Part shown: positions 5,921-50,280 of the stretch, in pieces
Layout: the number at the start of each line of letters is the position of its first letter
Position numbering within the stretch: the first letter of the stretch is position 1
DNA from: Rhizophagus irregularis
Taxonomy: Eukaryota > Glomeromycota > Glomeromycetes > Glomerales > Glomeraceae
NCBI RefSeq assembly: GCF_026210795.1
Contig: NC_089446.1
Coordinates: forward strand, 1,889,001-1,953,000
DNA: 64,000 nucleotides
Reading direction: 5' to 3'
Made by a program: the position numbers and the translations under genes
Notes under the pieces: generated by a model
Told to the model about the DNA's origin: nothing
The model's database searches: none
What the model saw: the letters and a program-made list of their open reading frames with translations, nothing else

Positions 5921-6584
5921 ATGCCTCGCCACACACGTCATCGTTCCCACTATAACGTTCATTGGAACTGGGCTATGATGGACGAACTTGTTGACATACG
6001 CCGAGACAGAAACTGCGCCTACCACAATATTAATGGTAGAAGCCGCCAAGATTTTTGGGACTCTGTTGCCAATAGGTTCATATGACTAATATCTATAATT
6101 TCTTTAAGAAAGAATTTAAATTCAAATTAACCAATCCATTTAATTGAATCAGAATAAATAGAATATTTCGAACGAGGGTTTCCGGGCAACAGTGCAGCCA
6201 AAAGTGGAGGAACCTCGTCAGGGATTACCATGTAAGTAAATAAATAACATTACATTTATATAAATTAAATGTATTTACCGAATATTCAAACTGATTTTGA
6301 TATTTAGAACTATGTCCTTTATCGTAATGGTAACCCTGGGCGGCGGCTGTGGACGCGTACCGGCGTAAGATATTATCGCGAATTTAGAACGAGATTTTGG
6401 GAGAGGCCGGGTAATTATACTATAATAAAATTTATAATTAATATTTACGTTCATGTTTTAAATTTGATAAATTTGATCAATTTTAGTCACGCATGACGAT
6501 CGTAGGGCAAGGAGAAACTTACCTACGTATCGTAGAAGAAGAATTATTTTTATTTTTTTATTTTTTTATTTATTAAGTGAGTAG
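5921..6584 (+). CDS. Myb/SANT-like DNA-binding protein, four exons
   Basis: A complete small gene. Exons 5921-6075, 6162-6231, 6308-6410 and 6487-6584 join to 426 bases (141 residues plus stop) with matching phases and GT-AG introns. The start is the only plausible ATG, just upstream of conserved sequence. Residues about 15-75 have the spacing of a Myb/SANT-like (trihelix-type) domain: HWNWAMMDELVDIRRD, then SRQDFWDSVANR, then SGQQCSQKWRNLVRDY. The tail is Arg-rich (RRARRNLPTYRRRR) and ends in a hydrophobic run read from a T-rich tract, so the true stop may differ in the living gene. A nuclear DNA-binding role is likely. It could be a free host factor or the Myb-like accessory protein of a Harbinger-type transposon. 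No Harbinger transposase is seen nearby. Confidence 0.72.
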
Positions 6585-6919
6585 TGCGGCCCAGTCCGTA
6601 CCAAATATCGGCTGGAGACTCACGTTTTTTTTGGGCTGTGACTGATACTGACGTCCACGCCGTACAGCCTGGGTACTATTTTATAAAATAGTAGCGAACA
6701 AGTATCAAATGTGTATTTTTTTTATTAAGTTATAATAAAAATTAGAATTTACTTTAATTTTTAACATAAAAATTGTAAATAATAAAAAATTCGTAAATAA
6801 AAATAAATTTGCTTTCCCAAACTTAAAAAAAAAGGTGTTTATATAAAAGAAAAGGTGTTTATATTATTTTTGATTATTCAATAGTATCACATGCCCCTTG
6901 TATACGTTCTACTGCATAT
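6585..6919. other. Intergenic
   Basis: No gene seen. A GC-richer stretch at 6582-6670 follows the stop of the Myb/SANT-like gene, then a perfect 20-bp palindrome TACTATTTTATAAAATAGTA at about 6673-6692, then AT-rich sequence. Confidence 0.4.
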
Positions 6920-7647: not shown

Positions 7648-10120
7648 TACTTTATTAACTTCTCCTGATGCTATTGATCAAGAAGTTATTGAACATTTTC
7701 AAAATTTTGTTCCAATTACTTCTACTCCTCCTTCTTCTATACAGGATTTGCCTGAACGATGGTCTAACGCTTATGCACCACTTGCTGATGTTTCTCCAGC
7801 TATTTTTGATTCACTAATGGATCCTCCTACCCTTGATGAATGGTCCTCAACAATTTCCTCCATGCCTAATGACAAAGCCTCAGGTCCTTCTATGATCTCG
7901 TATGAGATGTTGAAACACCTAGGTCCTTCTGTTTTTACTTTGCTTTTCAATTTAATTTGTGCCTGTTTATCAGAGGCTAATATCCCCGATTTATGGAGAC
8001 AAGCTACTGTTTTTCCTATTCCTAAACCGCATAAATGGAAATGCCAACTTAAAAATACACGTCCTATCACTTTATTGGAGGTGATTCGTAAGGCTTTGGT
8101 TAAACTTTTTTATAATCGTTTGGCTCCTTTGCTTGCTTCCCACCATGTTCTCCAAGGTGGTAATTTCGCAGGTTTACCTGGATGTTCCTGCCGTGATCCT
8201 ATTATTACTCTAGAATCCATTATCCATGATTCAGTAGTCACTAAACAACCCTTGTGGATTCTTTCTCAAGACATTTCAAAAGCATTTGACTCTGTAGATT
8301 TATCTATGTTGCGTTTTGCTCATCAACATTTACGTTTACTTCAAAATGCAATTCAATTCTTACTTTCTTTATTTATGTCACGTTCTAATCGTGTCATTAC
8401 TGCACATGGCCCTACTCCACCATATAGAGTTAAAATTGGAATAGATCAAGGTGAAGTTATCTCTCCGCTTTTATGGGTTATTTATTTAGACCCTCTGCTT
8501 ACAACTCTCAGAAATGAGAAGAAAGACTCTTATTGTTTGGTTTCTCCATTGGCTCCCTACACTGCTCCATCAATTTCTTGCTCGCTGGATGTTTTAGAAA
8601 TTAATAATTTGGTGTTCATGGATGATTCTACTTTGATCTCTTCTTCTAAAGAAGGAATGGAACATATATTGTCTATTACTGAAGAATTTTATTGTTTAAA
8701 CAATACCTCAGCCAACTATAACAAATATGTTTTAGCCACCAATGCAGTTGCTGCTTCTCGTGACTTGTCTCCTATAGCCTTTAATTTGTCGACTTCATCG
8801 CTCAACTCCACACCCAATATTATTGTTACTCCTATCCCTATGTCCTCATCTTTCCAGTTTTTAGGAGTTTGGTTTAATATTAACGACTCTAGGAACTTTA
8901 TCCGACAACAACTTAAACGAGAATGTAATTCTTTTTCTGCTACTCTTTGCCCTGCGAAACTGACTGTCCAACAAGTGGTATATCTCTATAATACTGTTTT
9001 AATCCCAAAATTAAATTATCGGATGCAAGTTATGCATCTATCTGAGGCTGAATGTTCCACTATTACCTCTTCAGTTCGTGCCTTAGTTAAACACAAGGCC
9101 AAATTATCACGCTCTGTTCCTAATGTGGTGTTATATTTAACACATGCTTTGGGTTTGATCAATTTATTTTCATTCCAACAACAAAGTCATTTTACTAATT
9201 TATTTTTGTTAGCAAATTCTTCCTCTGTTTTTATGAAATCATTATTTAATTATAGGTTGCGATTTATTCAATTTTATTGTTTAATTCCTATTTCTCTTTT
9301 GATGGTTTTGGATTGGACTTGTTGGTCTTCTCTTATAATTTTTAAACAAGATTATATCGCTAATACTCTAGCTTCATTACTCTCAACTCTTTTTCGTTTA
9401 TCACACACTAATTTATCGTCTGTGCCTGATATAACTTACCCCAATGGTCATACTCCTATTTATCATTGTCTTTCTTTGGATGTGTTTAAAGCCAATTTAA
9501 CAAGACTTTGAAAACGTGGCCTTTTTTACCTTTCGCAACTCTTGACACCTCAAGGAACACATTTGCTCTCTTGGTCCATCATATATGCTAATTCTATTCA
9601 AAAGCGAGGTAACGCCCGTCTTCCCAATTGGTACAAAAATCTCTCTGCTAATGTCATGATTCCAGATAAACCTGGTTTGTTAAAAGACCGATTTATGATT
9701 GTACAACGACCTGTGAGCCTGATTGCAAAAGAACTTGCTCCTTGCATTCCTCCTTCTGGTTATAAAAAGAATTGGATTGTCACGATGAGTGATAATGGCC
9801 TTCCCTCATTTGGTAAACAGATTCAGATCCAACCTAAACGCTCTACTTGTACTATTGTACATTGGACTTCAGACTGCTTATCTCGTCCGAGCGAATTTAT
9901 TACTCTACGACCTTGTTCTGGCTGCGATTTAAATATAAATAAATCTTCCTATTCAAAGAAATCAGTTTGCTACTGGTTCTGTTTCTTGCTCCTATTCGGC
10001 CTCTCTTCGACAATCATGGATCTTACCTATGAAGAAATCATCCATTTTGAATCACACATCCAGCTTGACTGCTACGGTGTCGTGGGCGGAAATCATGGAC
10101 TTTGTTACTTTGTCTTGTAA
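7648..10120 (+). pseudogene. LINE A ORF2: reverse transcriptase and linker
   Basis: Reverse transcriptase region. Motifs in order: TRPITLLEVIRKALVK and GGNFAGLPG (fingers), LSQDISKAFDSVDL (motif A aspartate), GIDQGEVISPLLW (motif B) and LVFMDDSTL (motif C). The catalytic box is FMDD rather than the more usual F/YADD, in both copies. The frame stops at 9509-9511 with TGA where copy B has CGA, then continues in the same frame to 10120. A one-base insertion near 9960 puts the downstream part out of frame. Copied RNA would have been reverse transcribed at the nick; this copy cannot make a full protein. Confidence 0.9.
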
Positions 10121-10137
10121 TTCTTCAGTTCGCTCGA

Positions 10138-11697
10138 TGCTCGCTGCTGATATTCCCCCTGCTTCCTTTTGTTGTTGACCAGGCCTTGCTTACTCCACAT
10201 TTACTTACGGCTGGTGATGTTGCTGCATCATCATCGGTCGTGCTTTCTCCAGACTCTCAATATACCTTTTACACTGATGGTTCTCTTATCAATTTAGTAA
10301 CTAGTGATGTTTCTATGGGATGGGGCTGGGTTCAAATTGTCAAAGATTCTGGCTTTCTTAATTCCATTGCCACTTATAAGCGGAATATTATTTACGATTG
10401 GCCTTCTTCTTCTCGTGCTGAAGCTGCTGCTATTTATGCTGCCTTATCAGCCTCTCCTGTCAATTCTATTGTTCATATCTATACAGATTCACAGTCTTCT
10501 ATCGAGGGTCTGAAACATTGTTTCTTATCTGATTATTCAGATTCTCGTCTTTATTATAAGACTACCAATTTTGAACTTTGGGCCATCATTCAACAACTGA
10601 TTGTGGATAAACAACTTTCAGTTCTACCCTTTAAGGTTAAAGCTCACTCTAATTTTTATTGGAATGACTTTGCTGACTCTCTTGCCAATACTGCCCATAC
10701 ATCTGACGATGCTATTCTTATCTCCCGTCTCGATCTTGCCACAGTTCATGATTATATTATGTCTTATGATGACATAGTTTGTGAATCCAACCCGAGACAT
10801 CTATTTAAACAATATCATCAGATGTTGTATATGAAAGACCTTTTAGCTCTTTCTCGCTTCCATTTTATTTCTTTTTTAACAGATCCATCCCAATATGTGG
10901 TTGACTGGGTTCTTACCTGGCATACGTTAATGTTTCAACCCAAATTTGATAATTCCTTCACTAAGGAAAATGTCTCTAGACATCACACGTTGAAATTTCA
11001 ACTTTTTCTGGAAGACTTACCTACTTTGGAATCGTTGAAAAGAACACGATCTGATCTATACGTAGAGATTCTAACCTGTCGTTCTTGTGAAGACCACTTA
11101 GAAGATTTTATGCACTTATTTTTATGCAAAAAGCGCCGCGTTAAATTACACCAAATTTTAACGTCATATCTCCATCACCTTATCCAAAAAATTAAAGAAG
11201 CAGGTGATAATGCCAATTGTGATTACTCTTCTTCAATTAATAGAGTTACTTCCCTCCCTTGCTGAACTTTTTCATCAAACAACTGGTCTTCCTATAGTCT
11301 TGTTCGTGGCTGTTTGCCTACCGCCTTTCTGGAAGTTTTTGAAAACTTAGGTATTCCTCACCTCACTGCTATGAATGTGGTTGCTGCCATACATAACAAT
11401 TTTGTCAACAAATTCCGTAAACGAATTTGGAATCCGCGTTCGTATGATAAAGGATTATGGGAACATACGATGAACATTTCTTCAAAATTTAAACAATCTC
11501 CAAGGCCTAAAGGTTTGCCCAAATCTTCTTATTTACCTTACTCGTCTTTACCACCTCCGACCCATGTTAATTCACGTGACTCCGGAACCGATTGGTTAAA
11601 AAATTCGATGCAATATGAATTATCTTGGTTTAATCACATTTCGGGTTTTATGGGTCATCTAACGGTGCTACTTAATAACCGCTTTTGCAGGATGTAG
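10138..11697 (+). pseudogene. LINE A ORF2: RNase H and C-terminal zinc-binding region
   Basis: RNase H fold with its acidic residues in order: FYTDGSL, SRAEAAAIYAAL, HIYTDSQSS, then KAHS and NDFADSLA. This domain removes RNA from the RNA-DNA hybrid. Downstream a Cys/His cluster (LTCRSCEDHLEDF, HLFLCKK) matches the C-terminal finger of many LINE ORF2 proteins. One TGA at 11263-11265 interrupts the frame where copy B has TGG; the same frame then runs on to 11697. The domain order RT, RNase H, Cys/His finger argues for the Tad/I/LOA side of LINEs over L1 or CR1 (inference). Confidence 0.88.
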
Positions 11698-12824: not shown

Positions 12825-14969
12825 ATGGATGATATGACTGAGGACGAACTTGTGGCTGAAGATGATGACGAACACGTGACTGAAGGTGAAGATGAGTTCG
12901 TGGCTGAAGATGAAGGTGAAGACAGAGACGAACTTGTGGCTGAAGATGAACAAATAGCTGAAGACGAAGATGAGCTCATGGTTGAAGACGAACACATGGC
13001 TGATGAACATGCGGCTGATGAACACGCGGCTGAAAATGATGATGATAATGGAGCTAGGCCTGAAGTTCCTATTCAGCGTAGTAAAAGGGGAATGCGATCT
13101 ATTAAATCACGATCACGAAATAAAAGAGGTGAAAGAGGTGCTTCTAAGTCATCTGTATGGGATCACTTTGATACTAAAACGGCCAAATATCCTGGTCGTC
13201 CTGTTTGTAAAAAATGTAATGCTATATTTTCAGCTGAATCAGGAACTTCTACTTTAAGAAGACACTTGTCTTCTCACAAAATTGCAGCACTGAAACAACG
13301 CCAAAAAACTATGCATGATTACCGTGTTGATCCTCATCCCAAAAATGAACAGGAGGAACGTGAAAAGTTGGTTGCTAATTGGGTTGTGTGTGATATTCAA
13401 CCTTTTAATGTTGTTGAATGTGAAGAATGGCGGCAAATGATTGCCAAATTTGATCTGAGATATCGATTTCACAATTGACACACTTTGAAAGACAATGTTG
13501 TAAATTTATTTGTGGAAAAATTAGAAGTCGTTAAATTGGCGGTGCAACAAATTCCAGGAAAGATAGCACTGACTTCAGATATGTGGACAGCCTCAAATAG
13601 CTCATCATTTCTGAGTCTTACCATTCATTATGTAGATTCTTCTTGGAAACTAAAAAATTTCCTTCTTGATATTATACCAATCGAAGTTCGACATAGTAGA
13701 TATAACATGGCGAATGCAATAATGGAGGTTCTTCGTAAGTTCAGTTTAGCTGAGAAAACTTTAGCGCTAACAACCGATAATGCATCCTCGATGGTTACTT
13801 GTGGCGAGTTTATAGTAGAGGAACTCGAAGAAGAATTTCGGAATCTAGATTTCACCCATTACCGATGTGTTACGCATGTTTTGAATCTTGCGGTTAACAA
13901 AGGCTTAGATCTAATTAGTGAATCCGTTAAGAAAGTAAGATCTCTAATGTCTTACATTAAATCCTCTCAGCCAGTGCATGACTCGTTAAAAGCACTATGT
14001 AAGGTGAAGGGAATCGATTATCTGGCACCCGAGCTTGACATTAATACAAGGTGGAATTCTACCTTTTACATGTTGGAAAAGTGGAAAAGAATGGAACCGG
14101 CTTTGAATTTACTTGCCGCTGATGATTTAAATATTCGTAGAAGGTATCTTGATGATGTTGATCGTATTAATATTGATGTAAGTATCCTTTCAGCATATCT
14201 TTCAATAACAATATTGCAAAAACTTACTATATTTTAATAAAATTAGGATACCATGGTTCTTTTGAGTCCAATCGAACGTGCAACCCGTCTTCTTTCAGCG
14301 TCCAGTTATCCAACTCATGGTGACGTTCAGTTCGTTTTTCTCGGTATCCAGGAGCATTTGTCTCGATATATTAATGATGAAAGTTTTTCGCAGCATATTG
14401 TGGCAGATGCAATTTATCAAAAATTAAGTAATTACTGGCCTATTATGAGCAAATCTTCACAAATCTCTTCATTATTAGATCCAAGGGTGAAATTTTCTGC
14501 ATTTGAAGATGAAATCGAAAAAACTAATGCAAAAAATTTGATATTAAATTTGGCCGGATATGCTTTCTCGTTGTCGCCATTACCTGCAGAAACTACACCG
14601 GGAAATGATATTATAGAGACGCGAAGTTTTTTTTGAAATCTACGTAACAATACCGTTACGTTAAATTCATTAGAAAATACCAACTCATCGGCATCTAGGA
14701 CACTTGATAATGAAATGGAAAGGTATTTAGCAATACTGTTAGAAGACCAGGTTGATCCCCTGCTCTGGTGGCAAGTTCGACAGGAAGAATTTCCGATTTT
14801 AAGTCGAATTGCACGAGATTATTTATGTATTCAAGCCACAAGTGTGGCTTCAGAGCAGGCTTTCTCAGTAGCCGGACTAACAATTTCACCACTGAGAAAT
14901 AGACTGGATGCTGAAACGGCTAGAGTAACATTGTGTTTGAAGAGTTGGATCCGTGAAGCCGTTTGTTAA
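12825..14969 (+). pseudogene. hAT I transposase, two in-frame stops
   Basis: Two exons, 12825-14177 and 14247-14969, same frame. The N-terminus is an acidic repeat (variants of ELVAEDE, residues about 5-70). Next is a BED-type finger (CKKCNAIF, then LRRHLSSH). The RNase H-like core follows with DMWTA, TTDNASSMV and RCVTHVLNLAVNKG, then NTRWNSTF. The C-terminal hAT dimerisation region contains WWQVRQEEFPILSRIARDYL and SVASEQAFSVAG, which holds the catalytic glutamate. The frame is open throughout except for TGA at 13476-13478 and 14634-14636. Both would be Arg if a single CGA-to-TGA change is reversed (inference). It was probably active not long before the stops arose. Confidence 0.93.
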
Positions 14970-17528: not shown

Positions 17529-19320
17529 ATGATGAACAATAATATAGATTATGATACCTTTGTGTGAAATCCCCCTAACCCCGTTGATTTTAGTGATATT
17601 TTTAATGATCCTTTATCTGATACATTATTTTCTTCCTCTTCCTCTACTTCACCCATCCCCAATTCTTTTAATATTTCTTCTTTTTAATATTAATGGTCTT
17701 AAAACTCCTGGTCAAGGTTCATTTAAAATAGACCAAATTTTTTCCTTCTTTTCTCACAACCATATTTCTTTTGGTGGTATTGTTGATACTCATTTATCAC
17801 CTAAACAAATGAAATTTTTATCTAAGCGAGTTTGTGATTATACTTCTTTCCATTCTGATTTGGATTCTACTAAACACGGCCGTTCTTCTGGCGGTGTTTC
17901 TTTGTTTATACACAACTCTTTAGCTACCCACGTCCAATTTTATCAATTCCATTCTTCCCGAATTCTTTCTGTAGACTTATTTTTTAAAGGCAATGTTAAA
18001 TTGCGTATATTTGTAGTCTATATTCCCCCTACAAATGATCTTGTTCTTCGATACGAAGTCATTGATCAATTAATTTCTCTTATTTCTCAAACTTCTTCAC
18101 AAAATTTTCACTATGCTATTTGCGGTGATTTTAACATGAATTTGGAAAAATTTTACCCCATATTTTTGCATCAACTTCAGGTTGCTGCTAAAAGAATTCA
18201 TAAATTATTTCATTATTTGCTTTCTCATAATTATGAGGATTGTACCCCCCTTAATTTATCTAGTACCTTAGGTACTTATCACCACTTGGACACTATTACC
18301 CGAATTGACTTTGTTTGGTCTTGCCCGCTTCTTCGTCGTTATATGTTAACATCAACCATTTTTAATGCCTATGATTTACACATTTCTGATCATAACCTTA
18401 TTATCACCTATTTTGACGCCTCTTTACTGTCAGATGCTATTAAATCTGCTCATGCTCATCAACTTTGTCGTAATACTTGACGCGTTTTTAAATACGATTC
18501 TATTTCTACAGAACAGTGGACTGCTTTTGCTATTGACTTGGATAAGTTATGTCCAATTGATCCACTTGTCTTTGATGCTTGGCCTCTTAATCAGAAGTGT
18601 GAATATCTTCATTCTAGGATTATTAAAGCTGCAAAGTCCCAGCTGCCCTCAATTACTGTGGGTAATACTTATGCTCTGAAGAAGCCTAAATATCTAGAAA
18701 GTTTATGCCAGTCTTATCGATTTTTGTCTAAAGTGGCTAAGACTATCCGTTCCCTTCACAAAAACCCTACTTTATATTCTGTTAGCTTTGAGTCCAAATG
18801 GTCTTCATATTATATACGTCTTAATCAACTTCTTTTTAGTTATAAACAAATTTTTGTTACTCCTATTGTTCTTCCTCCTTCTCTTCGTGATGAATGAATT
18901 GACGATTATGCTAATTTACTTCAAATGTTAGAGAATATGACTTTGCTTTTGCGAAGCCTACTTTTGCTTAAAGAAAAAGAATTCCAAGCTTCCTCTATTC
19001 AGGCAAAAATTGATGCTCAGAATGATAACTTCACCAATGATATCTCTACTTTTATTGAATCTGCCTTGTCATGAATTAGACGACGAATCGTTCTTGATCG
19101 TGTCTTTATTGATCATCCAACACGCCCTACTTTATTAACTTCTCCAGATGCCATTGATCAAGAAGTCATTGAACATTTTCAAAATTTTGTTCCAATTACC
19201 TCCACTCCTCCTTCTTCCATACAGGATTTGCCTGAACGATGGTCTAATGCTTATGCGCCGCTTGCTGATGTCTCTCCAACTATTTTTGATTCACTTATGG
19301 ATCCTCCTACCCTTGAAGAA
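17529..19320 (+). pseudogene. LINE B ORF2: APE endonuclease and N-terminal RT region
   Basis: Apurinic-type endonuclease that would nick target DNA. Landmarks: LFNINGLKTPG, FGGIVDTHLS, GGVSLFIHNS, CGDFNMNLE, RIDFVWSC and HISDHNLI (the final His of the fold). ORF2 probably starts at one of two ATGs at 17529 and 17532, 48 bases after the end of ORF1. In-frame TGA codons occur at about 17563, 18478, 18895 and 19072. A frame change near 17690 and a 4-base duplication at about 19320 (GAATGAATGG against GATGAATGG in copy A) finish it off. Confidence 0.88.
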
Positions 19321-22300
19321 TGAATGGTCTTCGACGATTTCCTCTATGCCTAATGATAAAGCCCCAGGACCTTCTATGATCTCATATGAGATGTTGAAAC
19401 ATTTAGGACCTTCTGCTTCTGCTCTTCTTTTTAACCTAATTTGCGCCTGTTTATCAGACGCAAATATCCCTGATTTATGGAGACAAGCTACTGTCTTTCC
19501 TATTCCCAAACTGCATGAATGGAAATGCCAACTTAAAAATACTCGTCCTATTACTTTATTGGAAGTGATTCGCAAGGCTTTGGTTAAGCTTTTTTACAAT
19601 CGTCTCGCTTCTTTGCTCGCTTCCCACCATGTTCTTCAAGGAGGAAACTTTGCTGGTTTACCTGGAGGTTCCTGCCGTAATCCTATTATTACACTGGAAT
19701 CTATTACCCATGATTCGGTAGTTACCAAACAACCTTTATGGATTCTCTCTCAAGACATTTCAAAGGCGTTTGATTCAGTTGATCTATCCATGTTGCGTTT
19801 TGCTCTCCAGCGCTTACGTTTGCCACAAAATGCTATTCAATTTCTACTTTTCTTGTTTATGTCACGTTCCAATCGTGTTATTACTGCACATGGCCCTACT
19901 CCATCATATAGAGTTAGAATTGGGATTGACCAAGGTGAAGTTATCTCTCCGCTTTTATGGGTTATTTATTTAGACCCTTTGCTCACCGCTCTCCAAAATG
20001 AGAAAAAAGATTCTTACCGTTTGGTTTCTCCAATGGCTTCCGATTTTGTTTCATCAAACTCTCGTTCTCTAGATGTTTTAGAAATCAATAATTTGGTGTT
20101 TATGGATGATTCTACTCTGATTTCTTCTTCTAAAGAAGGAATAGAACATATGTTGTCTATTACTGAAGAATTTTATTGTTTGAACAACACTTCAGCTAAC
20201 CATGATAAATATGTTTTAGCCACCAATGCAATTGCTACTTCTCGCGATTTATCTCCTATAGCCTTTAATTTGATGACTTCATCACTCAACACTACAACCA
20301 ATATTACTGTTACTCCTATTCTTATGTCCTCATCTTTCTGTTTCTTGGGCGTTTGGTTTAATATTAATGGCTCTAGGAATTTTATTCGACAACAATTTAA
20401 GTGAGAATGTAATTCTTTCTCTGCAATTCTCCGCCCGGCAAAATTGACTGTTCAACAAGTGGTATATCTTTATAATACTGTTTTAATCCCAAAATTGGAT
20501 TATCGAATGCAAGTTACGCATTTATCTGAGGTTGAATGTTCTACTATTACTTCTTCAATTCGTGCCTTAGTTAAACACAAGGCCAAATTATCACGTTCTG
20601 TTCCTAATGTGGTGTTATATTTAACACAAGCTTTGGGTTTGATCAATTTATTTTCGTTTTAACAACAAAGTCATTTTACTAACTTATTTTTATTAGCAAA
20701 TTCTTCTTCTGTTTTTATGAAGTCACTTTTTAATTATAGGTTGAGATTTATTGTTTAATTCCTATTTCTCCTTTGATGGTTTTGGATTGGTCTTGTTGGT
20801 CTTCTCTTATAATTTTTAAACAAGATTACATCGCTAATACTTTAGCTTCATTGCTCTCAACTCCCTTCCGTCTGTCGCGTACTAATTTATCGCCTGTGCC
20901 TGATTTAACCTATCCTAATGGCCATACTCCTATTTATCAATGTCTTTCCTTGGATGTATTTAAGGCCAATTTAACAAGACTTCGAAAACGTAGCCTTTTT
21001 TACCTTTCGCAACTTTTGACACCCCAGGGAACATATTTACTCTCTTGGTCTGTCATATATGCTAACTCTATTCAAAAGCGTGATAATGCCCGTCTTCCCA
21101 ATTGGTACAAAAATCTTTCTGCTAATGTCACGATTCCAGATAAACCTGGTTTATTGAAAGATCAATTTATGACTAAACAACGACCTGTGAGCCAAATTGC
21201 AAAAGAACTTGCTCCTTGTACTTTTCCTTCTGGTTATAAAAAGAATTGGATTGTCACGATGAATGATGATGGCTTCCCTATATTCGGTAAACAGATTCAG
21301 ATCCAACCCAAGCATTCCACCTGTACTATTGTACATTGGACTTCAGACTACTTATCTCGTCTGAGCGACTTGATAACTCTACAACCTTGTCCTGGCTGCA
21401 ACTTGAATATCAACAAATCTTCCTACTCAAAGAAATTTGTTGCTACTAGCTCTGTGTCTTGCTCCTATTCGGCCTCTCTTCATCACTCATAGATTTTATC
21501 TATGAAGAAATCATCCATTATGAGTCACACATCCAGCTTGACTGCTACGGTGTCATGGGCGGAAATCATGGATTTTGTTACTTTAACTTGTAATCCTTCA
21601 GTTTGCTCAGTGTTAGCTACTAATATTCCCAATATTTCCTTTAATACTGTTGACATAGCTTCACCTACTACACATTTAATTACAGCTGGCGAGGTTGCCG
21701 CATCATCATCGGTCATGTTTTCTCCAGATTCACATTATACCTTTTACACTGATGGTTCTCTTATTAATTTAGGAACTAGTGATGTTTCTATGGAATGGGG
21801 CTGGGTTCAAATTGTCAAAGATTCTGGTTTTCTTAATTCTATTGCCACTTATAAGCGGGGTATTATTCACGATTGGCTTTCCTCTTCTCGAGCCGAAGCT
21901 GCTGCTATTTATGCTGTTTTATCAGCCTCTCCTGCCAACTCTGTTGTTCATATTTATACAGATTCACAGTCTTCCATCGAGAGTTTGAAACATTGTTTCT
22001 TATCTGATTATTCAAATTCTCGTTTTTATTATAAGACTACCAATTTTGAACTTTGGGCTATCATTCAACAACTGATTGTGGATAAACAACTTTCGGTTTT
22101 GCCTTTCAAAGTTAAAGCTCACTCTAATTTTTATTGGAATGACTTTGCTGATTCTCTTGCCAATACTGCCCATACATCTGACGACGCTGTTCTCATCTCC
22201 CGTCTCGATCTCGCCGCGGTTCATGATTATATTATGATCTATGATGACGTGGTCTGTGAATCCAACCCAAGACATCTATTCAAACAATATCATCAAATGT

Positions 22301-22752
22301 TGTATATGAAAGACCTTTTAGCTCTTTCTCACTTCCGTTTTATTTTTCTCTTAACGGACTCATCTCAATATATGGTTGATTGGACTCTTACTTGGCATAC
22401 ATTAATGTTCCAACCTAAATTTGATAATTCTTTCACCAAGGAGAATATCTCTAGATATCACACATTAAAATTTCAACTTTTTCTGGAAGACCTACCCACT
22501 TTGGAATCATTGAAAAGGACACGACTTGATTTATACGTGGAAATTCTAACTTGTTGTTCTTGTGAAGACCACTTAGAAGATTTTATGCATTTATTTTTAT
22601 GCAAAAAATGTCGTGTTAAATTACACCATATTTTAACATCTTACCTTCACCACCTTACCCAAAAAATCAAAGAAGCGGGTGATAATGCCAATTGTGACTA
22701 TTCTTCTTTAGTGGATAGAATTACTTCCCTCCCTTGTTGGTCTTTCTCATCT
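19321..22752 (+). pseudogene. LINE B ORF2: reverse transcriptase and RNase H
   Basis: Same domain series as copy A: LSQDISKAFDSVDL, GIDQGEVISPLLW, LVFMDDSTL, then FYTDGSL, SRAEAAAIYA and HIYTDSQSS. Breaks relative to A: TGA at 20402 (A has CGA), TAA at 20660 (A has CAA), a 10-base deletion near 20753, and TAG at 21490 where A and E have TGG. The Cys/His finger near 22555-22610 reads LTCCSCEDHLEDF. LINE homology stops at about 22752 and the frame then reads through the opposite strand of the hAT II relic, so the last 50 residues of that frame are not LINE sequence. Confidence 0.9.
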
Positions 22753-23686
22753 AGCAGTAATGCTATTAATCTACAAAAAATTAAACATTATTATTTTAGT
22801 TACAATAAAAATAATATTATAGTTATTAACTACTTTACCTTTTTTGAAATATCATATAAATTTAATACCGTAATTAGCTCTTCTGCAATATTTTTTCCAG
22901 TATGAGAACCTTTTAATTCAATAAAATCAAGAGTTATTTGTTGAAGGTGCCAAGAATTATCAATAAATGTACAGTATTTCCATATATGATTTGACAACAG
23001 TTGAAGTCCAAATATCTAATGATAATGATAATTTTCCTAAAGTTTTCTTTAAAATTTTTTGAATAGTTATTCGTATATCTATATGATATTGTATAATATC
23101 ACGTCTAATTGTATCTGCCGATACAAGATGAAATCCACCAGTAACTTTTTTAAGAATCCATTTAAGCCATCCCTCAACAATTGTAAATGGAAGATCTTCA
23201 AGAATAATCCAATTTGTTAACCATTTTCGTAGATTTTCTTCTTTACTAGCCTATATTAAAAAAGTTGTATTTAATTATTTTTACTAAATATAATTATCAG
23301 TTATCTGTTATATAATTATTAATTAATTACCCCTGTAAAAATTTCACTGTTACTATTTATCGATAAACCAAATTGTTCTAATGTATGTTGAGTAGTTGAT
23401 AAACCAAGAAGAGACACGTGTATTTTTTTAATATGTGTCCAAAGATTTGTTGTTGCACCTTTAACAACAACATATTTGGCATTACAATAATTGCATTTTG
23501 CAGTAATTTTATTGTCTTGCCCTCTTTCTTTAGTGAAATACTTCCAAATATTAGATTTAGATTTTTCGGAAGTTTCTGTATCTATACGCTATATTAAATT
23601 ATAATAACAAAATTTATATTTAATTAATATAATTTATTTTAAAATAATATAAATATAAATTTAAAAATTACCATTTCTAACGACAT
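22753..23686 (-). pseudogene. hAT II transposase, N-terminal half
   Basis: Four exons on the minus strand: 23686-23672, 23588-23331, 23250-22839 and 22770 to the break. The first two introns are GT-AG and phase 0. A BED finger lies in exon 2 (CNYCNAKY, then HIKKIH, preceded by NIWKYFTKERG). Exon 3 has the hAT core start: FTIVEGWLKWILKK, SADTIRRDIIQYH, LSLSLDIWTS. A frame change near 22985 separates this from FIDNSWHLQQITLDFIELKG and HTGKNIAEELI. Exon 4 would lead into the second catalytic Asp region but is cut off. It is clearly a different family from hAT I. Confidence 0.85.
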
Positions 23687-34184: not shown

Positions 34185-35875
34185 ATGATTAACGAAGAAA
34201 TATCAACGATTTTTGTTGTCGGGTTTCCTGATGATATGCAAGAACGTGAGTTTCAAAATATGTTCATCTTTTCACCAGGGTTTGAAGCTGCAACCTTAAA
34301 GATTCCTCAAAAAGATTCTTCGGATGATGATGCATCTGCCAATGGTAGCTCTATTGGAAATGGAACAATTAACGGGAATGTAAATAATGCAAGAAAGCAA
34401 ATCGTATGTAATTTATTTTATCACTATTATTTGTTTTTCATTTTATGATTATCTATATTATAGAAACCCATTCCCAAGTTTTAAGGATTAATTAAAACGA
34501 AACTTTTATCAGTATATTTGTGCAAATTACTCATTTTAAATCCTTTGTTTTGCTGTCTCAGATCGGCTTCGCAAAGTTTCGTACTAAACTTGAAGCACTT
34601 GAAGCTCGAGACATTCTTAGTGGAAGAAAAGTCGATGCTGAAAAAGGTTCCGTTCTCAAAGCTGAAATGGCGAAGAAAAACTTGCATACCAAACGTGGCC
34701 TTTCGAATGAACAAAACACTCCATTCTCTCTACTTCCTCCTACTAAGCGCTTTTCAACTCCAAACACCATTAATACCACTTCTACCTATGATGCTTTTCA
34801 TTCTGTGCCTCCTTTTGCAGCCCCACCGCTTCCAAGTGATTTATTGTCTCCTCAAGATTATGGGTATGATTTTTATTCAGACGTCAGCGTTTATACTCCC
34901 ACAACTCCTACTACTCCTGTTTTTGATCAAACTCCTTTCTCTTCTACCCGTGGCTCTTTTGATGCAACTAATGGTGCTATTGGTGGTTTGGTTGGTGCAC
35001 CTTCACGTCCTCTTAACGGTGTCAGATATGGGAAAGGCATTTTTGATGAAGATTTGAATGGTTACTCTCTTTCATCAAAATCAAATCCTGTCGAAATAGT
35101 TTCTAAAACTGCAAAGAACCAGTCAAATGGTTTTAATACTGCTTTACTTGTTGGTGAAGAGTTGCCCCATGCAATGTCTGCTCTTTCTATCAATACCACT
35201 ATTTCACCATCGGTCGTTTCTTCATCTCCATCAATTCCTTCTCCTGGTTTTCGTCCTCCTAATCCGGCTGACCAAAATCCGCCATGTAATACTCTCTATG
35301 TCGGTAATTTACCAATGAACACCTCCGAAGAAGAACTAAAAAATATGTTTTCATGTTGCCCCGGTTACAAACGTATGTGTTTTCGTACGAAACAAAATGG
35401 GCCAATGTGTTTTGTTGAATTTGAGGATGTTCATTATGCCACTCAGGCAATGAACGAACTCTATGGTAATCTACTTAGCAATTCGGTCAAAGGAGGAATT
35501 CGGTTGAGTTTCTCAAAGAACCCATTGGGAGTAAGAAGCAATAATAATGGAAGTCATACGAGTCTTAATAGCTTTAATGGAGAAAGACGAGGCTCAACCT
35601 ATAGTCTCAGTGATCGCAGGGATTCCACTTTCAGTTTGGATAGACGAGATAGTACTTACAGTTTAACTGATCGTAGAGATTCTTTTAGTTTGGAAAGACG
35701 GGATTCTACTTTCAGTTTGGGAGGTAGAGATTCTACTACTTTTGGTCATGCTGACCGTATTAATTTGGAAAGAAGAGATTCTTTCTTTACTCCTGAAAGA
35801 AGGGATTCTTTGAGGGATGCCTTCTTTGCTCCGGAAAGAAGAAATTCTTTTTCTTTTGATCCACAGTTGGCATAA
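34185..35875 (+). CDS. Whi3-like RNA-binding protein (RRM), intact
   Basis: Two exons, 34185-34403 and 34562-35875, give 510 residues. The intron is GTATGT...CAG. The first RRM-like segment is split by the intron: [19 protein letters not shown] and FEAATLKIP in exon 1, [19 protein letters not shown] in exon 2. A Ser/Thr/Pro-rich linker follows. The C-terminal RRM spans residues about 310-395: NTLYVGNLP (RNP2), [12 protein letters not shown] (RNP1) and [11 protein letters not shown]. This architecture matches the Whi3/Mde7-type regulators of fungi, which bind mRNAs in cytoplasmic granules and influence the cell cycle. The last 100 residues repeat RRDS(T/F)(F/Y)SL, giving eight RRxS sites, the consensus of PKA-type kinases. 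No breaks. It is the only clearly intact host gene in the window. Confidence 0.9.
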
Positions 35876-39046: not shown

Positions 39047-39667
39047 AGTATAGCAGACATCCCTATTTTATTACAATTTTGTTGATCATTTGTCAATCAT
39101 TTGTATGATTTTATCACATAATACAAGTGCTGTTTGTTATTTATTAATAGATAATAGGGAAAATTTTTACTTAATATATGGTAAAATAGAATAAAATAAA
39201 TAATTTACCCTTATATTTTCAAGATCTAAACAAAAAGATTTTGTTCTTTTATTAAAAGTCCATTAATAACAAATAATTAGCTAAATTCTCTATAAGCAAA
39301 AAATCTGTATTATAGGCCAAAACTCTGTATTATTTTTTTTGTAAATTATATATGATAAAAGGAATGTTTATGCAAAGTTTTAAGTTTCGGCCTTGCATAT
39401 TCAGCTTTGGCCATCAATTTTTGTTCAGTGATCAGCCAAAATTTCAAATTATCACATATTAATAATATAGTATATAAAATTAAAGAATTATATTATAATT
39501 ATGTAATTAAGTTATTATGTAATAATTAAGATGCCATACTTTTGATTTATTTTGTTAGAAATTTACTTTACTAGATACTTTTTTAAAATTTTTAATTGTT
39601 TTTAATAATAAGAAAAATATGATTGGCAAATGATGGGCAAAGTGATATAAAGCATGTCCGCTATGCT
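39047..39667. mobile_element. Non-autonomous AGCATAGCG element, copy 1 (621 bp)
   Basis: The left end AGTATAGCAGACATCCC and the right end (minus strand) AGCATAGCGGACATGC match the ends of the 4.3-kb element at 45990-50271, with subterminal GATCATTTG motifs. Flanking 9-mers GAAATAGGA (39038-39046) and GAAATAAAA (39668-39676) agree at 7 of 9 positions, an eroded 9-bp target duplication. No coding sequence. Confidence 0.8.
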
Positions 39668-41502: not shown

Positions 41503-42108
41503 AGCATAGCGAATATGCTTTTATCACTTTGCCGATCATTTATTGATATCATGTCACATTAATTTTGAAGCTATGGTTAAAGCCATAAAATTCTTAGCCA
41601 AACTATACTAATGTCTTTTTAGTAGTATAATTTATGAAAAATAAAAAAAATTATATTGTTAAAGTTAACCTTAAACTGAAATTTTCAATAATTTGATATT
41701 TGCCTATATTTGCCGATCATCTGTTAATTTGACTTTGGAGCTTCGGGCGAAGCCACAGATTTATGGGCGAAACTTGAAATTTTCAAAATATATTATTTAG
41801 GTATTCAAGAATCAATAGCCAAAATAATTATGTAGAATTTTAGGTAATCAAAATGTTATCATTGAGCAAATGTTTATGAATATTATTAAAATATACATAA
41901 ACAAAATTTGTAAAACTTTATTAACTGTTTAAAGAATTTTTTTTGATAAATTTAATATGCAGTAAATTTAAATGAATGTTAAATTGTCTGTAAAATTATT
42001 ATTATGTAGGATTTTCAACCAAAGTAATTATAACGAAGTGATAAAATTGAATAAATGATCAACAAATGATCGACAAAATTGTGATAAAGTAAAGATATCC
42101 GCTATGCT
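41503..42108. mobile_element. Non-autonomous AGCATAGCG element, copy 2 (606 bp)
   Basis: The left end AGCATAGCGAATATGCTTTT and the right end (minus strand) AGCATAGCGGATATC match the large element. GAGCTTCGGGCGAAGCCACAG inside also has its inverse near the right end of that element (49985-50015). Flanking 9-mers GTGCTGATA and GTACTGACC agree at 6 of 9. Confidence 0.78.
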
Positions 42109-45980: not shown

Positions 45981-45989
45981 GTGTTGTAT
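45981..45989. repeat. 9-bp target duplication, left copy
   Basis: GTGTTGTAT, identical to 50272-50280. It lies inside the interrupted SAM-protein gene. Confidence 0.95.
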
Positions 45990-46083
45990 AGCATAGCGAA
46001 CATCCCGATTTTATCACAATTTTGCCGATCATCTGTAGATCATTTGTCGATCATTTAATCAATTTTATCACTTCGCAATAATT

Positions 46084-46400
46084 AAGTTAATTAACTTCGA
46101 TTGAAAAATTCAACATAATAATATATACTCAAATTTTGCATACAGTTTAATATTAGTTTGAAATTACTGTATATGAAATTTTATTTGGATCGCATTACTA
46201 TTGGATAACTTTTACTAGTAGAAACTTTTAAATTTTAAGCATTTTTATTAAAATTAAAAGTTTCTATTAGTAAAAATTATCCAATAGTAATGCGATCCAA
46301 ATAAAATTTATATACAGTAATTTCAAACCAATATTAAACTGTATGCAAAATTTGAGTATATATTATTATGTTGAATTTTCCAATCGAAGTTAATTAACTT
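46084..46400. repeat. Long inverted repeat, arms about 154 bp
   Basis: 46084-46238 (AAGTTAATTAACTTCGATTG onward) and 46248-46400 are inverted copies with only a few mismatches and about a 10-base spacer. A single strand would form a stem of some 150 bp. It lies in the left subterminal part of the AGCATAGCG transposon. Confidence 0.88.
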
Positions 46401-46427
46401 AATATAATAGCATATTTACTGTTATGT

Positions 46428-46752
46428 TAAGTTAATTAACTTAAATTGGAAAATTCTACATAATAATATATGCTCAAAATTTCCAAACAACTTATTATTG
46501 ATTTGAATTTACTGTGTATCAAATTTTATTTGGATCACATTATTATTGGATAACTTTTATTAGTAGAAACTTTAACTTTTAATAAAATGCTGTCATATTA
46601 AGCTAATAAACTTTAATTAAACAATTCTGCATAATAATATGGCTCAAATTTCAGTTACAAAATACTTAATATTGATCTAACTTTACTGATTTATGAAACC
46701 TCATCATCATTGAATAAGATTTATTAGTAGCAACTTTTTAAATTTTAATAAA
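46428..46752. repeat. Third and fourth copies of the subterminal repeat
   Basis: 46428-46590 and 46598-46752 repeat the left arm of the inverted pair in direct orientation with increasing divergence. Shared blocks are CATAATAATAT, TTTATTTGGATC and TTATTAGTAG(A/C)AACTTT. Confidence 0.75.
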
Positions 46753-46820
46753 AATGTATTTTTATTATAAATTAAATAATATTACATATAAAAATCAAAA
46801 TATATTCTAAGTTAAATAAA

Positions 46821-48350
46821 TTATAAGCTATCATAATTTGACCATTCTTGATATAAAATTTCAAATTGATTATCTATATTTTGCTCTAATCTTTCTAAAA
46901 TACTTTGTATATTTTCATCATTATTTTCATTTGAATTGTTATTTATTTCCTCTTCAACTAAAGGTATTTCATTATCTTTTAGTGGAGTAGTTAATCTTGC
47001 TGTTAAGGTATTAATATTTTTTTGAGCTTCAAATGATAAATAATTAAAACAATGATTACATTTATCATTATATAAAGTTAAACATTCTTTATGAAAACCA
47101 TGCCCACAAATTAAAACAATACCATTAGATGAATCTATATTATTAGGTAATAAACATTTTTCTGCATCACAAAAATTATCATTAGCAGGTTTATATGCTG
47201 TATTCCATGCTAATGGAAGAACTTTTATATCTACATTAATTTCAAAGCTTGGAAGCATAAAACTTGGATATTTACTATTATTAATTTGGGTTGTATTTCC
47301 AATATTATGATAAATTTTATCAAAAAGAGAAAACAAAAATAAAGAAACTTTTCTTTCTAAATAATTTAATTTATCTTGAGAAATAGTTGGATTTCTTGAA
47401 TTAATAAAAGATTCTTTAAATGAATTATTATTTCTTTCAGCATCAATAATTTTTGCTTTTTGAATAATTTGCAGTGCATTATTTGATTCAGCAGTTTGAC
47501 TTCTAATAGAACTGTGGAAATTTTCAACAAAATAATCATTAAAAATAGGTAAATTTTTTTTCAAAACATTTGCCATTGGATGATTATTAAGCTCCCAATA
47601 AAACACATCACTTAAAAATACAAGTGGTGCTTTATTATAATTATGTCTCCTTAATCTTTGAAATAATACCCAAACTCTTACAACACTTTCTAAATATCCC
47701 TCAAAGTATCCACTTCTAAAAAGTACTGCATATATATCTAAAGTAAGTGGTATAGAATTATCTAACAAATCAATCATCATTCTATATTCTGCATCTTTAG
47801 AATTTTTAAAACGATTCATAATGACTTTTCTAATCTTTTTCCAACCATTAAATGTTAAATCTAAAATAAGATTAATTACAGTTTGTTTTGGCTTTTGAGA
47901 CAATACTTTTTTATCTCCAAATAAATCATGATACAACATCTCAAAGAAAAAATGGTAAGTTTGAAACAAGGTTTCTCTACTATTTAAAGAAATATGAAGT
48001 GGTCCAATCATAGGAATTAAACTTAATATTTGTTTTGGAATTCCAGATGCAATTCCTCTATTAATTCTTAATGTTATAGCTCTTCTTATATTTACTTGTC
48101 CTGGCCAATCAGCAATTATAGGAATAATGTAATGATCTAAATAATCAGTATTTTCTAACCTTTCAAATACTTTAAATAAAAGATTTGAACATTCAATATA
48201 ATCTTTAGTACTATGTAATGGGTGCAAAATAAAATCTACTAATTTGCTATTATTTAATGATCTTAATTCCTGATGTTTTTGAATGCGACCATCATAATTA
48301 TGAACATTAAGATTTTCAATTCTATTTTCATAAGAATCTTCAATTAACAA
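46821..48350 (-). CDS. Candidate transposase, C-terminal part with RING-like end
   Basis: An open frame of 509 residues. Its first codons are TTG-type, so it is better read as the continuation of the frame ending at 48344 than as a separate protein. Segments: VHNYDGRIQKHQELRSL, IIPIIADWPGQVNIRRAI, PMIGPLHISLNSRETLF, LLDNSIPLTLDIYAVLFR, FNDYFVENFHSSIRSQTAES, and a RING-like end with CDAEKC, CGHGFHKEC and CNHC. The Asp in IADWP and the Glu in YFVENFHS are candidate catalytic residues (inference). The RING-like finger could bind DNA or act in ubiquitin transfer. The tail is acidic and Asn-rich. I do not recognise a named superfamily. Confidence 0.75.
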   Translation of the reverse strand: MLIEDSYENRIENLNVHNYDGRIQKHQELRSLNNSKLVDFILHPLHSTKDYIECSNLLFKVFERLENTDYLDHYIIPIIADWPGQVNIRRAITLRINRGIASGIPKQILSLIPMIGPLHISLNSRETLFQTYHFFFEMLYHDLFGDKKVLSQKPKQTVINLILDLTFNGWKKIRKVIMNRFKNSKDAEYRMMIDLLDNSIPLTLDIYAVLFRSGYFEGYLESVVRVWVLFQRLRRHNYNKAPLVFLSDVFYWELNNHPMANVLKKNLPIFNDYFVENFHSSIRSQTAESNNALQIIQKAKIIDAERNNNSFKESFINSRNPTISQDKLNYLERKVSLFLFSLFDKIYHNIGNTTQINNSKYPSFMLPSFEINVDIKVLPLAWNTAYKPANDNFCDAEKCLLPNNIDSSNGIVLICGHGFHKECLTLYNDKCNHCFNYLSFEAQKNINTLTARLTTPLKDNEIPLVEEEINNNSNENNDENIQSILERLEQNIDNQFEILYQEWSNYDSL

Positions 48351-49582
48351 ATTTTTCCATAATTCATTTTGCTTTCATAATAACTTTTGCCTATTTGGTT
48401 CATAAAATAATTCTCAAACTTTTTAATAATTAATTTAGAGTCAATTCCTTTAGGATTATGTATTAAAATATTATTTGAAAAACATGGTATTCTTGGAATA
48501 TTAGGATTAGAATTTAATAATATTGTAACAAAATGAAAGATATTATGTGTTTCCAATAATGATGGCATAGTACGTCGATGAATATTATGGTAATCATCAA
48601 TATTCAAAACAAACATTTTTTCTATATTTTGTAAACAATAATTATCAACAGATTGTTCATGTTCATCTGAAACAATTTTTTTTTGTCGATTTACTGTCAT
48701 TCTTGATACTGATAATCCAAGATTTGCAAGTGTATCAATAGAAGTAGCTGATGCTCCAGAAGTTTGTAAATATGATCCAATATCAGCCTTAATTCCATTA
48801 ATGTATTTATTATTAATACTAGCTAAAAAATAGCATAAAGAAACTAATTTTTTCTTATTACTATTATTTGTTTTATCAGATTTAGTTTTAGGATTAGTTC
48901 CTTGATATAATTCATCAAAAAAACCAATTAAATCTGCATCTTCTGTTTCTAACATATTATTAAATTTATCAGGATCATAAATTGTTTTTTGTTCTAATAT
49001 TCTTTGATTTTTATAAAGAATATTAGACATTTTTTTAATTTTGTTACTTAAACTAATTTCATCTGTAATTGTTAATTGTGATATAATTTCTTGATAATCT
49101 GATTCAAATTGTTTTAGTTCTTCACCATTATATAAAATATCTTTTCTAAATGAATAAGTATGATTTCCCATTGTTAAAATATTATCATCATCCTTTTTTT
49201 TGGAAATTGGTGCAGTATATTCTTCTAACATATTATAATCAGGATCATTATCTGTTTTTTTTCTGCACAAACTACAAATTTTAGCAGTCTCATCTAAATT
49301 TAAAATTGGTATTAATCTTTTTGGTATCTTTTCAAGATTAAGGTTTTTTGATCTCTTATTTGCATTTTTTGATTGGCTTTTATATTCATCATGCTTTGGA
49401 TGAGAGCAAGTTTCATTATGTTTTAGGCTATAAGCCTCATTAATAATAAATTTATTATAGTGAGTTTGACATAATTTCATGCCAACTAAAATAGTTTCTT
49501 TTTGTGTTATTGGAATTTTTGTATTATTAGTCATTGTCCTAATTACTCCTTTGCAATCAGTTGAGTTAAAACTGCAGGACAT
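48344..49582 (-). CDS. Candidate transposase, N-terminal part
   Basis: 412 residues from the ATG at 49582. Cys/His pairs at the N-terminus (MSCSFNSTDC, LCQTHYNK, TCSHPKHDEY) and ICSLCRKKTD at about residue 100 suggest two or three zinc-binding fingers. A Lys-rich middle follows. The part LSVSRMTVNRQKKIVSDEHE resembles a helix-turn-helix region before FVLNIDDYHNIHRRTMPS, whose Asp residues are candidates for the first catalytic position. The frame ends at 48344 just past a run of five A (minus strand, 48356-48352). One extra A there would fuse it in frame to the next part, giving about 920 residues. Confidence 0.75.
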   Translation of the reverse strand: MSCSFNSTDCKGVIRTMTNNTKIPITQKETILVGMKLCQTHYNKFIINEAYSLKHNETCSHPKHDEYKSQSKNANKRSKNLNLEKIPKRLIPILNLDETAKICSLCRKKTDNDPDYNMLEEYTAPISKKKDDDNILTMGNHTYSFRKDILYNGEELKQFESDYQEIISQLTITDEISLSNKIKKMSNILYKNQRILEQKTIYDPDKFNNMLETEDADLIGFFDELYQGTNPKTKSDKTNNSNKKKLVSLCYFLASINNKYINGIKADIGSYLQTSGASATSIDTLANLGLSVSRMTVNRQKKIVSDEHEQSVDNYCLQNIEKMFVLNIDDYHNIHRRTMPSLLETHNIFHFVTILLNSNPNIPRIPCFSNNILIHNPKGIDSKLIIKKFENYFMNQIGKSYYESKMNYGKIC

Positions 49583-50211
49583 TTTTTTTGAATAAAATTT
49601 CAGAAATTTAAAGTTAAAAAAGTATTATTTTGTATTAAGTTAAAAAAAATAATATTTTTTATATTAAATTGAATAATAATATTTTATATTGAAAATGATG
49701 TTAATTTTATAAATATTTCTTGTGAATTTTTTAAAGGACTATTTATAAAAAAGTGAACCATATAAATTTTAATCATTTTACTTTATTTATTTATTTTATA
49801 TTGTTAATGAATTAATTCTTAAAATAGTTCATAAGATGTGCCAAAAATTAACCTTATTAACCTTATAACAATTGCAAGTCTTTATTTAATGATAACTTCT
49901 TGATTATTAAAAATTATTCTTGGTTATTTTAGCCATTAATTCTTGAATACCTAATTAATATATTGTAAAAGTTTCAAATTTCGCCCGAACATCTGTGGCT
50001 TCGCCCGAAGCTCCAAAGTCCGATTAGGAAATGATCAGCATATATATCAAATATTGAAAATTTCGGCCTAAAGCTAACTTTGGCGCCACATTTTATTTTG
50101 CTACAAAATTTTTATACTAAATTATTAATATATTATACTATTAAAAAAACAATTTAAAATAATTTTTTAGAATATTTATGGCCTGGAATAAAGTCTCAAA
50201 ATTAGTGTGAT
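49583..50211. other. Non-coding right subterminal region of the AGCATAGCG transposon
   Basis: AT-rich; no gene. It contains CGCCCGAACATCTGTGGCTT and the nearby GCCCGAAGCTCC, whose inverse occurs in the 606-bp relative at 41503-42108. This region would hold the promoter of the minus-strand transposase. Confidence 0.5.
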
Positions 50212-50271
50212 ATCACATATAATATGATCGGCAAATGATCGGCAAGGTGATATAAGCATGTTCGCTATGCT

Positions 50272-50280
50272 GTGTTGTAT
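50272..50280. repeat. 9-bp target duplication, right copy
   Basis: GTGTTGTAT, identical to 45981-45989. Confidence 0.95.

Follow-up and report, generated by a model that had tools for sequence, protein, structure and literature searches.

The DNA considered here is a stretch of 64,000 nucleotides from the arbuscular-mycorrhizal fungus Rhizophagus irregularis (hereafter the window; contig NC_089446.1, forward-strand positions 1,889,001 to 1,953,000, or G000:C18:1889001-1953000). At window positions 45990-50271 it carries a 4282-bp element that is very probably a decayed autonomous cut-and-paste DNA transposon, whose lineage would rank as a superfamily and matched none of the families against which it was tested. 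Within the scope of Pfam, NCBIfam and profiles of Mutator-like element (MULE), Plavaka and KDZ transposases from the same genome, the likeliest reading of its family is as an undescribed lineage at superfamily level, made up of cut-and-paste transposons with an Asp/Asp/Glu (DDE) transposase. The element had been singled out in an earlier reading of the sequence, made without database searches and referred to below as the original prediction.

Ends, Target Sites and Copy Number

Genome searches covered 146.7 Mb in 32 contigs, and the window itself has a guanine-plus-cytosine (GC) content of 29.6%. The element is bounded by exact 14-bp terminal inverted repeats, as in DDE cut-and-paste transposons of the terminal inverted repeat (TIR) kind. 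The left repeat, AGCATAGCGAACAT, lies at 45990-46003 on the plus strand, on the 3' side of the transposase gene, and the right one, its exact complement, at 50258-50271 on the minus strand, on the 5' side. Directly outside them the 9-mer GTGTTGTAT stands at 45981-45989 and again, as a perfect match, at 50272-50280, so that both the matching inverted ends and the perfect 9-bp target site duplication of the original prediction are borne out. Subterminal palindromic repeats occupy 46081-46640, with arms of 57-108 nt that are 79-96% complementary. A nested element was considered for this block and rejected; because the block recurs in other copies and at the places of short relatives, it is read as part of the family.

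When the two flanks of the window element were joined with a single copy of the 9-mer, the resulting 269-base query site aligned across the junction with paralogues on contigs C3 (92%), C19 (87%) and C30 (85%). The alignments begin at base 69 or 70, the paralogues carrying additional sequence upstream, and at the junction of these empty sites the 9-mer is present once, with 1-2 substitutions. The element was thus inserted into a pre-existing repeat.

Counting genomic copies, as the original prediction had proposed, reveals a sizeable family. At least 93 genome places match the C-terminal frame in tblastn, seven of them within open frames of 935-1055 codons, and the genome contains 112 occurrences of the 28-base left end (at most 3 mismatches) and 115 of the 26-base right end. 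An exact 9-bp duplication flanks 18 of 20 full-length and 19 of 20 short two-ended copies examined, and thus 37 of 40 show the fixed-length target duplication expected of DDE transposons. The full-length sample comprises the window copy, nine copies and ten others, all with both ends; these ten and the 20 short copies were chosen among listed ends for having both ends, which makes the sample non-random, and L003 and L011, in each of which a single end was found, stand outside the count. The 37 exact duplications are 37 different targets, among which at most a weak RTNNWNNAY-like tendency is apparent. A chance origin of the ends was rejected, given that the reversed controls yielded 0 occurrences for either end and that swapped flank pairs matched in 0 of 1560 cases.

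The short copies measure 620-837 bp, with one of 1890 bp, and their terminal 47-62 bases match those of long elements at about 83-96% (as seen for rows L049-L056 set beside three elements). Because these termini are common to the long copies, the short ones look like non-autonomous relatives. Two old, gene-less relatives with AGCATAG-type ends are also found in the window, at 39047-39667 (621 bp; flanks matching at 7 of 9 positions) and 41503-42108 (606 bp; 6 of 9). Both lie less than 7 kb from the main element, and their 9-bp duplications have decayed.

Reading Frames and Probable Recent Movement

The original prediction had described two adjoining open frames totalling about 920 residues with a set of named motifs, and these were found on the reverse strand at 48344-49582 (412 residues) and 46821-48350 (509 residues from a TTG), overlapping by 7 bases. 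In relatives the gene is a single uninterrupted frame, of 918 residues in L009, 932 in L008 and 1054 in L004, and the frame junction of the window copy is read through in one frame by a 98.9%-identical copy that has a break of its own at another place. The window copy is therefore frame-broken, and the TTG of its second frame is therefore no real start. The N-terminal part of the gene (48374-49582, minus strand) encodes a Cys/His-rich, putatively zinc- or DNA-binding segment, a helical domain and the first candidate catalytic Asp, while the C-terminal part (46821-48374, minus strand) encodes the second and third candidate acids, a helical insertion and a RING-H2-like finger. The sister copy L010, 99.84% identical to the window copy, is likewise not one open frame.

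Five copies of 4.55 kb (L002 and L004-L007) are 99.85-99.93% identical to one another, and four of them have their own exact 9-bp duplication. Because near-identical copies sit at different targets, these observations suggest that the family moved recently. Recent activity had been proposed before on the strength of intact ends and frames; the ends are indeed intact, and intact frames exist in other copies and not in that of the window. In the 4.55-kb lineage, the N-terminal Cys/His segment is duplicated (L004 1876-5040), which lengthens the protein from about 920 to 1054 residues.

Predicted Fold of the Transposase

The original prediction had placed an RNase H-like Asp/Asp/Glu triad in the motifs NIDDYH, DWP and VENFHS and had asked for a structure prediction. 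The full-length model of L009 has a mean predicted local distance difference test score (pLDDT) of 69.5, and a model of the core (L009 residues 175-776) reaches a pLDDT of 79.9 and a predicted template modelling score (pTM) of 0.72. Strands are modelled at residues 327-336, 354-363, 450-457, 489-495 and 526-530, the third core strand being poorly formed, and after them come helices, first a block at about 548-685 and then a single one at 688-700. Apart from the extra strand at 450-457, this is the order of elements in RNase H-like transposases that carry an insertion ahead of the last acid. The core is accordingly modelled as RNase H-like, with an insertion made up entirely of helices, which is the fold expected of a DDE transposon and is present here by prediction.

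The candidate acids occupy fitting places in this model. Two adjacent Asp codons in NIDDYHNIH (48593-48598, minus strand; D333/D334 in L009), one of which would encode the first catalytic acid, fall in core strand 327-336; the Asp codon in ADWPGQ (48108-48110, minus strand; D496) follows core strand 489-495 and would supply the second; and the Glu codon in VENFHS (47523-47525, minus strand; E691) is placed in the helix that follows the insertion and would supply the last. Among the alignment rows covering each position, D333 and D334 are conserved in 14 of 15, D496 in 16 of 16 and E691 in 13 of 13. Together with the model, this near-invariance supports D333/D334, D496 and E691 as a putative catalytic D/D/E triad.

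Structural comparison points in the same direction. For the whole protein, 48 of the 50 matches listed by VIA-align are DDE transposases or RAG1, including ISCth4 (Z 10.0; root-mean-square deviation [rmsd] 5.2 over 265 aligned residues), the P element (9.9; 6.2, 331), Hermes (9.2; 6.5, 298), RAG1 (8.5; 6.5, 333), Transib (8.3; 6.4, 336) and Mos1 (4.9; 4.4, 148). For the core, 43 of the 50 matches listed are DDE transposases or RAG1, the rest being ribosome-assembly factors and one NTPDase. The P element is here the best match (Z 12.5; rmsd 5.7, 336 aligned), followed by Hermes (10.6; 6.7, 290), ISCth4 (9.4; 5.4, 267), Transib (8.4; 5.8, 328), RAG1 (8.2; 6.8, 359) and Mos1 (6.3; 4.5, 150); absence of a family from these lists does not exclude that family. 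The core alignment with Mos1 runs from 10 residues ahead of D333 to 36 beyond E691, and on the Mos1 side from 10 residues ahead of D156 to 37 beyond D284, a range that fits the proposed triad. A search of the viral models in BFVD returned nothing at E≤0.001. By prediction, then, the RNase H-like core holds up, and the candidate triad does so as far as tested.

A RING-H2-Like Finger at the C-Terminus

Within the last ~110 residues of the transposase lies a finger of the form C-X4-C ... C-X-H-X2-H-X2-C ... C-X2-C (47049-47171, minus strand). The zinc-ligand spacing of RING-H2 is present in 12 of 44 alignment rows, many of the rows being fragments without this region; the first pair has the canonical C-X2-C form in three divergent rows and the C-X4-C variant in nine. 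Pfam RING models match the transposase below their cut-offs. Sequence searches of solved structures gave 6 matches with the single protein and 25 with the profile, which are RING proteins and chance matches at E 0.13 or worse, with no transposase in either search. Because of the ligand spacing, the sub-cutoff Pfam matches and the predominance of RING proteins in the profile search of the Protein Data Bank, the C-terminal finger is likely a RING-H2, in line with the RING-like end originally described, and it may serve as a ubiquitin ligase or a scaffold. Two further domain matches were set aside as chance: HEPN (PF18735; best E 6.4e-05), which lies below its cut-off and in few members (5 of 44), and MHC_II_beta (E 0.0077), also below its cut-off.

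Divergent Relatives and Selection on the Transposase

A search with an exon of a divergent relative found 112 genome places, and the genes of these relatives are split, apparently by introns. Those with located ends share 32-47% protein identity with L009, compared piece by piece, and retain AGCATRG-type ends and 9-bp duplications. Ends were sought in L009-L028 and L003 from an AGCATAG seed, keeping pairs whose repeat matched at 12 or more of 14 bases or whose duplication was near-exact. This gave seven pairs, of which those in L010, L013, L017 and L018 have repeats of 13-14 of 14 bases and an exact 9-bp duplication; the pairs in L012 (two) and L014 (one) have no duplication, and the remaining loci, many of them short cuts, gave no pairs. 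L013 (on C6) and L070 (on C11) have AGCATAGGGAAAGTTT ends with the duplications TCTTAACGT and ATTAGATTT, one end on C11 reading AGTATAG. L017 has ends AGCATGGTTAA with duplication TTTCTTTAT, and L018 ends AGCATAGGTAAA with duplication GTTTATATG; in each, the 13 matching repeat bases of 14 are enough to qualify the pair. The AACAGGGCGGACAT ends of L009, which start AACAG, and its 9-bp duplication GTGCCATAT were located by another route than the seed. Among near-identical divergent copies on C6, C24, C29 and C11, both ends and the duplication are found on C6 and C11, while the alignments of the C24 and C29 copies end before the right end. In L012, two copies of a divergent member (1984-4192 and 5219-6898) lie within 5 kb in opposite orientation, with their 5' ends facing.

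One relative was found elsewhere. L078 (VBAS01000141.1), a 4276-base soil metagenome contig, contains a 920-codon frame 92.8% identical to L009, and by eye its ends have the same repeat as L009, with no duplication found. The contig is labelled as a Bacteroidetes metagenome-assembled genome; because its GC content is 24%, it is probably misbinned fungal DNA. Of two scans of the genome contig collection, the first found no relative and the second gave L078 as the sole locus; scans of viral contigs found none, and plasmids gave no match. The family extends beyond this assembly. The ratio of nonsynonymous to synonymous substitution rates (dN/dS) is 0.245 between L009 and the L078 frame and 0.33-0.44 in the remaining five pairwise comparisons of the four intact frames used. 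Because of these values the protein is read as being under constraint, and the transposase is under purifying selection.

Other Elements in the Window and Genome

Other sequences were noted along the window and in the genome. A Plavaka-type transposase stretch (PF18759, 86 bits) lies at window 2917-3513 (G000:C18:1891917-1892513), and many genome places score alike. By eye, long frames at 7817-11265 and 17551-22905 resemble the reverse transcriptase, endonuclease and RNase H of non-LTR retrotransposons, two frames at 12825-14237 resemble a BED-finger/hAT-type transposase, and a 402-residue frame at 34667-35875 with repeated RRDS segments resembles an RNA-recognition-motif protein. KDZ-type fragments occur at 23 genome places, including G000:C25:3332780, C17:3034363, C20:341028 and C28:2059355, and four of these fragments have nearly the same score.

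Proposed Mechanism and Significance

These findings can be assembled into a plausible working scheme. A single gene would produce a transposase of about 920-1050 residues comprising a Cys/His-rich N-terminal segment, a helical domain, a D-D-E core and a RING-H2-like finger. The N-terminal segment may be what binds the ends of the element; the transposase would bind the 14-bp ends and the subterminal repeats and then pair the ends, and the D/D/E triad would excise the element. Joining to target strands staggered by 9 bp, followed by repair, would leave the 9-bp duplication, and the same transposase probably also mobilises the elements of 0.6-1.9 kb that have the same ends.

Several points weigh against reading the family as a superfamily-level lineage of DDE transposons with this core. 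The alignments behind the structural models comprised 38-44 sequences, for the most part exon fragments of a single genome, and the whole-protein and core models were each good only in the best of five. Z-scores below about 13 may reflect a mere common arrangement in mostly helical models, and Foldseek gave no match at E≤0.001 for either the whole protein (best 6xg8, E 0.048, probability 0.95) or the core (best 6p5a, E 0.021, probability 1.00). The residues GPLH 531-534, E541, D612, D620 and D663 are about as conserved as the proposed acids, so conservation alone is insufficient to pick the triad. The copy in the window is broken in frame, and transposition is deduced from sequence comparisons. 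Finally, full-length L007 and L045/L046 and short L063 have no duplication, and the copies counted were preselected for the presence of both ends.

A bolder reading, possible but doubtful in its full extent, is that of a new eukaryotic DDE superfamily with AGCATRG-type ends, a 9-bp duplication and a C-terminal RING-H2 ubiquitin-ligase module, in which DDE core and RING were paired independently of RAG1; on this reading it would recently have been active in an arbuscular-mycorrhizal fungus and would mobilise short non-autonomous families of its own. If true, the superfamily claim would enlarge the small number of eukaryotic DDE superfamilies by one branch, and with a RING fused to the core one could test directly whether ubiquitin ligation serves a transposase in controlling its own complex or repair, a question tied to RAG1. 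Many repeats of R. irregularis are unclassified (PMC11075540, PMC8647823, partial texts); the former reports two-thirds of its transposable elements as unclassified and describes a curation that took the classified part of the DAOM197198 genome from 12% to 36%. The family would enter this repeat set with a transposase and a target rule of its own and with recent copies.

Comparison with Known Superfamilies

Membership in known families was judged by a Pfam scan at E≤10 of three intact proteins and four exon pieces, which matched no transposase family, and a scan of the 44 alignment rows at E≤1 likewise found none among the best 25 of 46 families. NCBIfam gave the three proteins one chance match (adenylate kinase, E 0.084) and nothing else. 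The Pfam models do match elsewhere in the genome, with KDZ at 23 places, Plavaka at 123 and MULE at 150 scored places. In hhalign, against profiles built from five MULE, five Plavaka and four KDZ proteins or fragments of the same genome, the family scored 0.2, 0.5 and 0.3%, respectively, the profiles being shallow (effective number of sequences 1.3-2.7) and the KDZ rows (138-147 residues) and some Plavaka rows partial. As controls, the MULE set split in two gave 100% (E 1.8e-68) and Plavaka against MULE 0.3%; by this test, the family stands as far from each of MULE, Plavaka and KDZ as the two accepted groups of the latter control do from one another. The profile searches that had been suggested thus gave no confident match to a known superfamily: of the original alternatives, a new superfamily stands as far as tested, and a distant Mutator or Plavaka branch has no sequence support. 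DUF6589 (PF20231), considered as a candidate, has no match in the genome, a result of little information since 14 control genomes were equally silent.

It is conceivable, if unlikely, that the family split off very far back from the Mutator/Rehavkus group and that its sequence has diverged beyond recognition. The 9-bp stagger, a single transposase with a zinc finger and the short ends would all suit such an origin, and ISCth4, a member of the Mutator-related IS256 family, heads the whole-protein fold list in a tie with the P element. In the partial text of PMC6446971, Rehavkus has 9-bp duplications and one open reading frame (ORF), and a MULE named Ghost carries a RING-finger ORF. These likenesses are set against the silence of the MULE model PF10551 on the three intact proteins, the 0.2% obtained with same-genome MULEs where the within-MULE control reached 100%, and the core fold search, which puts the P element above ISCth4 (12.5 vs. 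9.4); Rehavkus terminal repeats are also longer, at 26-400 bp (PMC6446971) vs. 14 bp in the family. A different origin, remote from but within the group of P elements or that of hAT, with the insertion in the core common to both, draws on the P element and Hermes being the first and second core matches (the former with Foldseek probability 1.00). Because ISCth4, Transib and RAG1 match the core too, the fold does not single out P, and the Pfam scan at E≤10 gave no match to a P-element, THAP or hAT model, so this placement also seems improbable.

Rather more room is left for the family having been catalogued already under some label in Repbase, Dfam or a Rhizophagus transposable-element library, which we nonetheless consider less than probable. 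A curated R. irregularis library holds 636 sequences of newly identified families (PMC11075540, partial text), and its pipeline could have filed the family under MULE, Transib or another label. A literature search by title and abstract, with supplements outside its scope, found no description of the family among the matches listed, and a full-text search for the end and motif strings returned, among the matches listed, only the bare 9-mer, in unrelated work. By comparison, a subgroup of KDZ or Plavaka is highly improbable. Both are groups of large DDE transposases of fungi, typically zinc-containing, and both are present in this genome, but their Pfam models (PF18758 and PF18759) are silent on the intact proteins, and the hhalign values are those given above. 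Their duplications, 7 or 8 bp for KDZ and 2-3 bp for Plavaka, differ from the 9 bp of the family, as do the TGT or CATCA ends of Plavaka/CMC from its AGCAT ends (PMC12730594, partial text). An undescribed superfamily-level lineage of DDE transposons remains the preferred reading.

Set beside individual systems, the family shares single traits with several. Mutator comes close in its duplication, since 9 bp falls within the MULE range of 8-11 bp (PMC6446971), and the view that a 9-bp duplication is typical of Mutator-like elements fits in length. MULE terminal repeats are typically long, and the 14 bp of the family lie at the bottom of the 14-500 bp range (PMC6446971); no sequence link to MULEs was found with PF10551 or hhalign. 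Rehavkus has a PHD finger (PMC6446971), whereas the finger of the family has RING-H2 spacing. Merlin duplicates 8 or 9 bp, similar to the 9 bp here, but has GG ends and DDE_Tnp_IS1595 (PMC8101967, partial text), whereas the family has AGCAT ends and no match to that model at E≤10. Among other groups, Zisupton and Dileera duplicate 8 bp and Kyakuja 7 (PMC12730594). Hermes has an RNase H-like core and helical insertion as in the family, but hAT duplications are 5-8 bp (PMC12730594). The bacterial ISCth4 resembles the family in fold, over both the whole protein and the core. The P element likewise has an RNase H-like core in which a large insertion precedes the last catalytic acid, but identity over the aligned residues is 13% and the family has the C-terminal RING-H2-like finger. 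The P-element duplication is 8 bp, against 9 bp here, and the modelled fold match would speak for a similar way of working, not for membership. Transib and RAG1 are more distant matches, with 10 and 8% identity, respectively, in the fold alignments, and Transib duplications are 5 bp. RAG1 also joins a DDE core with a RING finger, which is N-terminal there, whereas the RING of the family described here lies at the other end of the protein.

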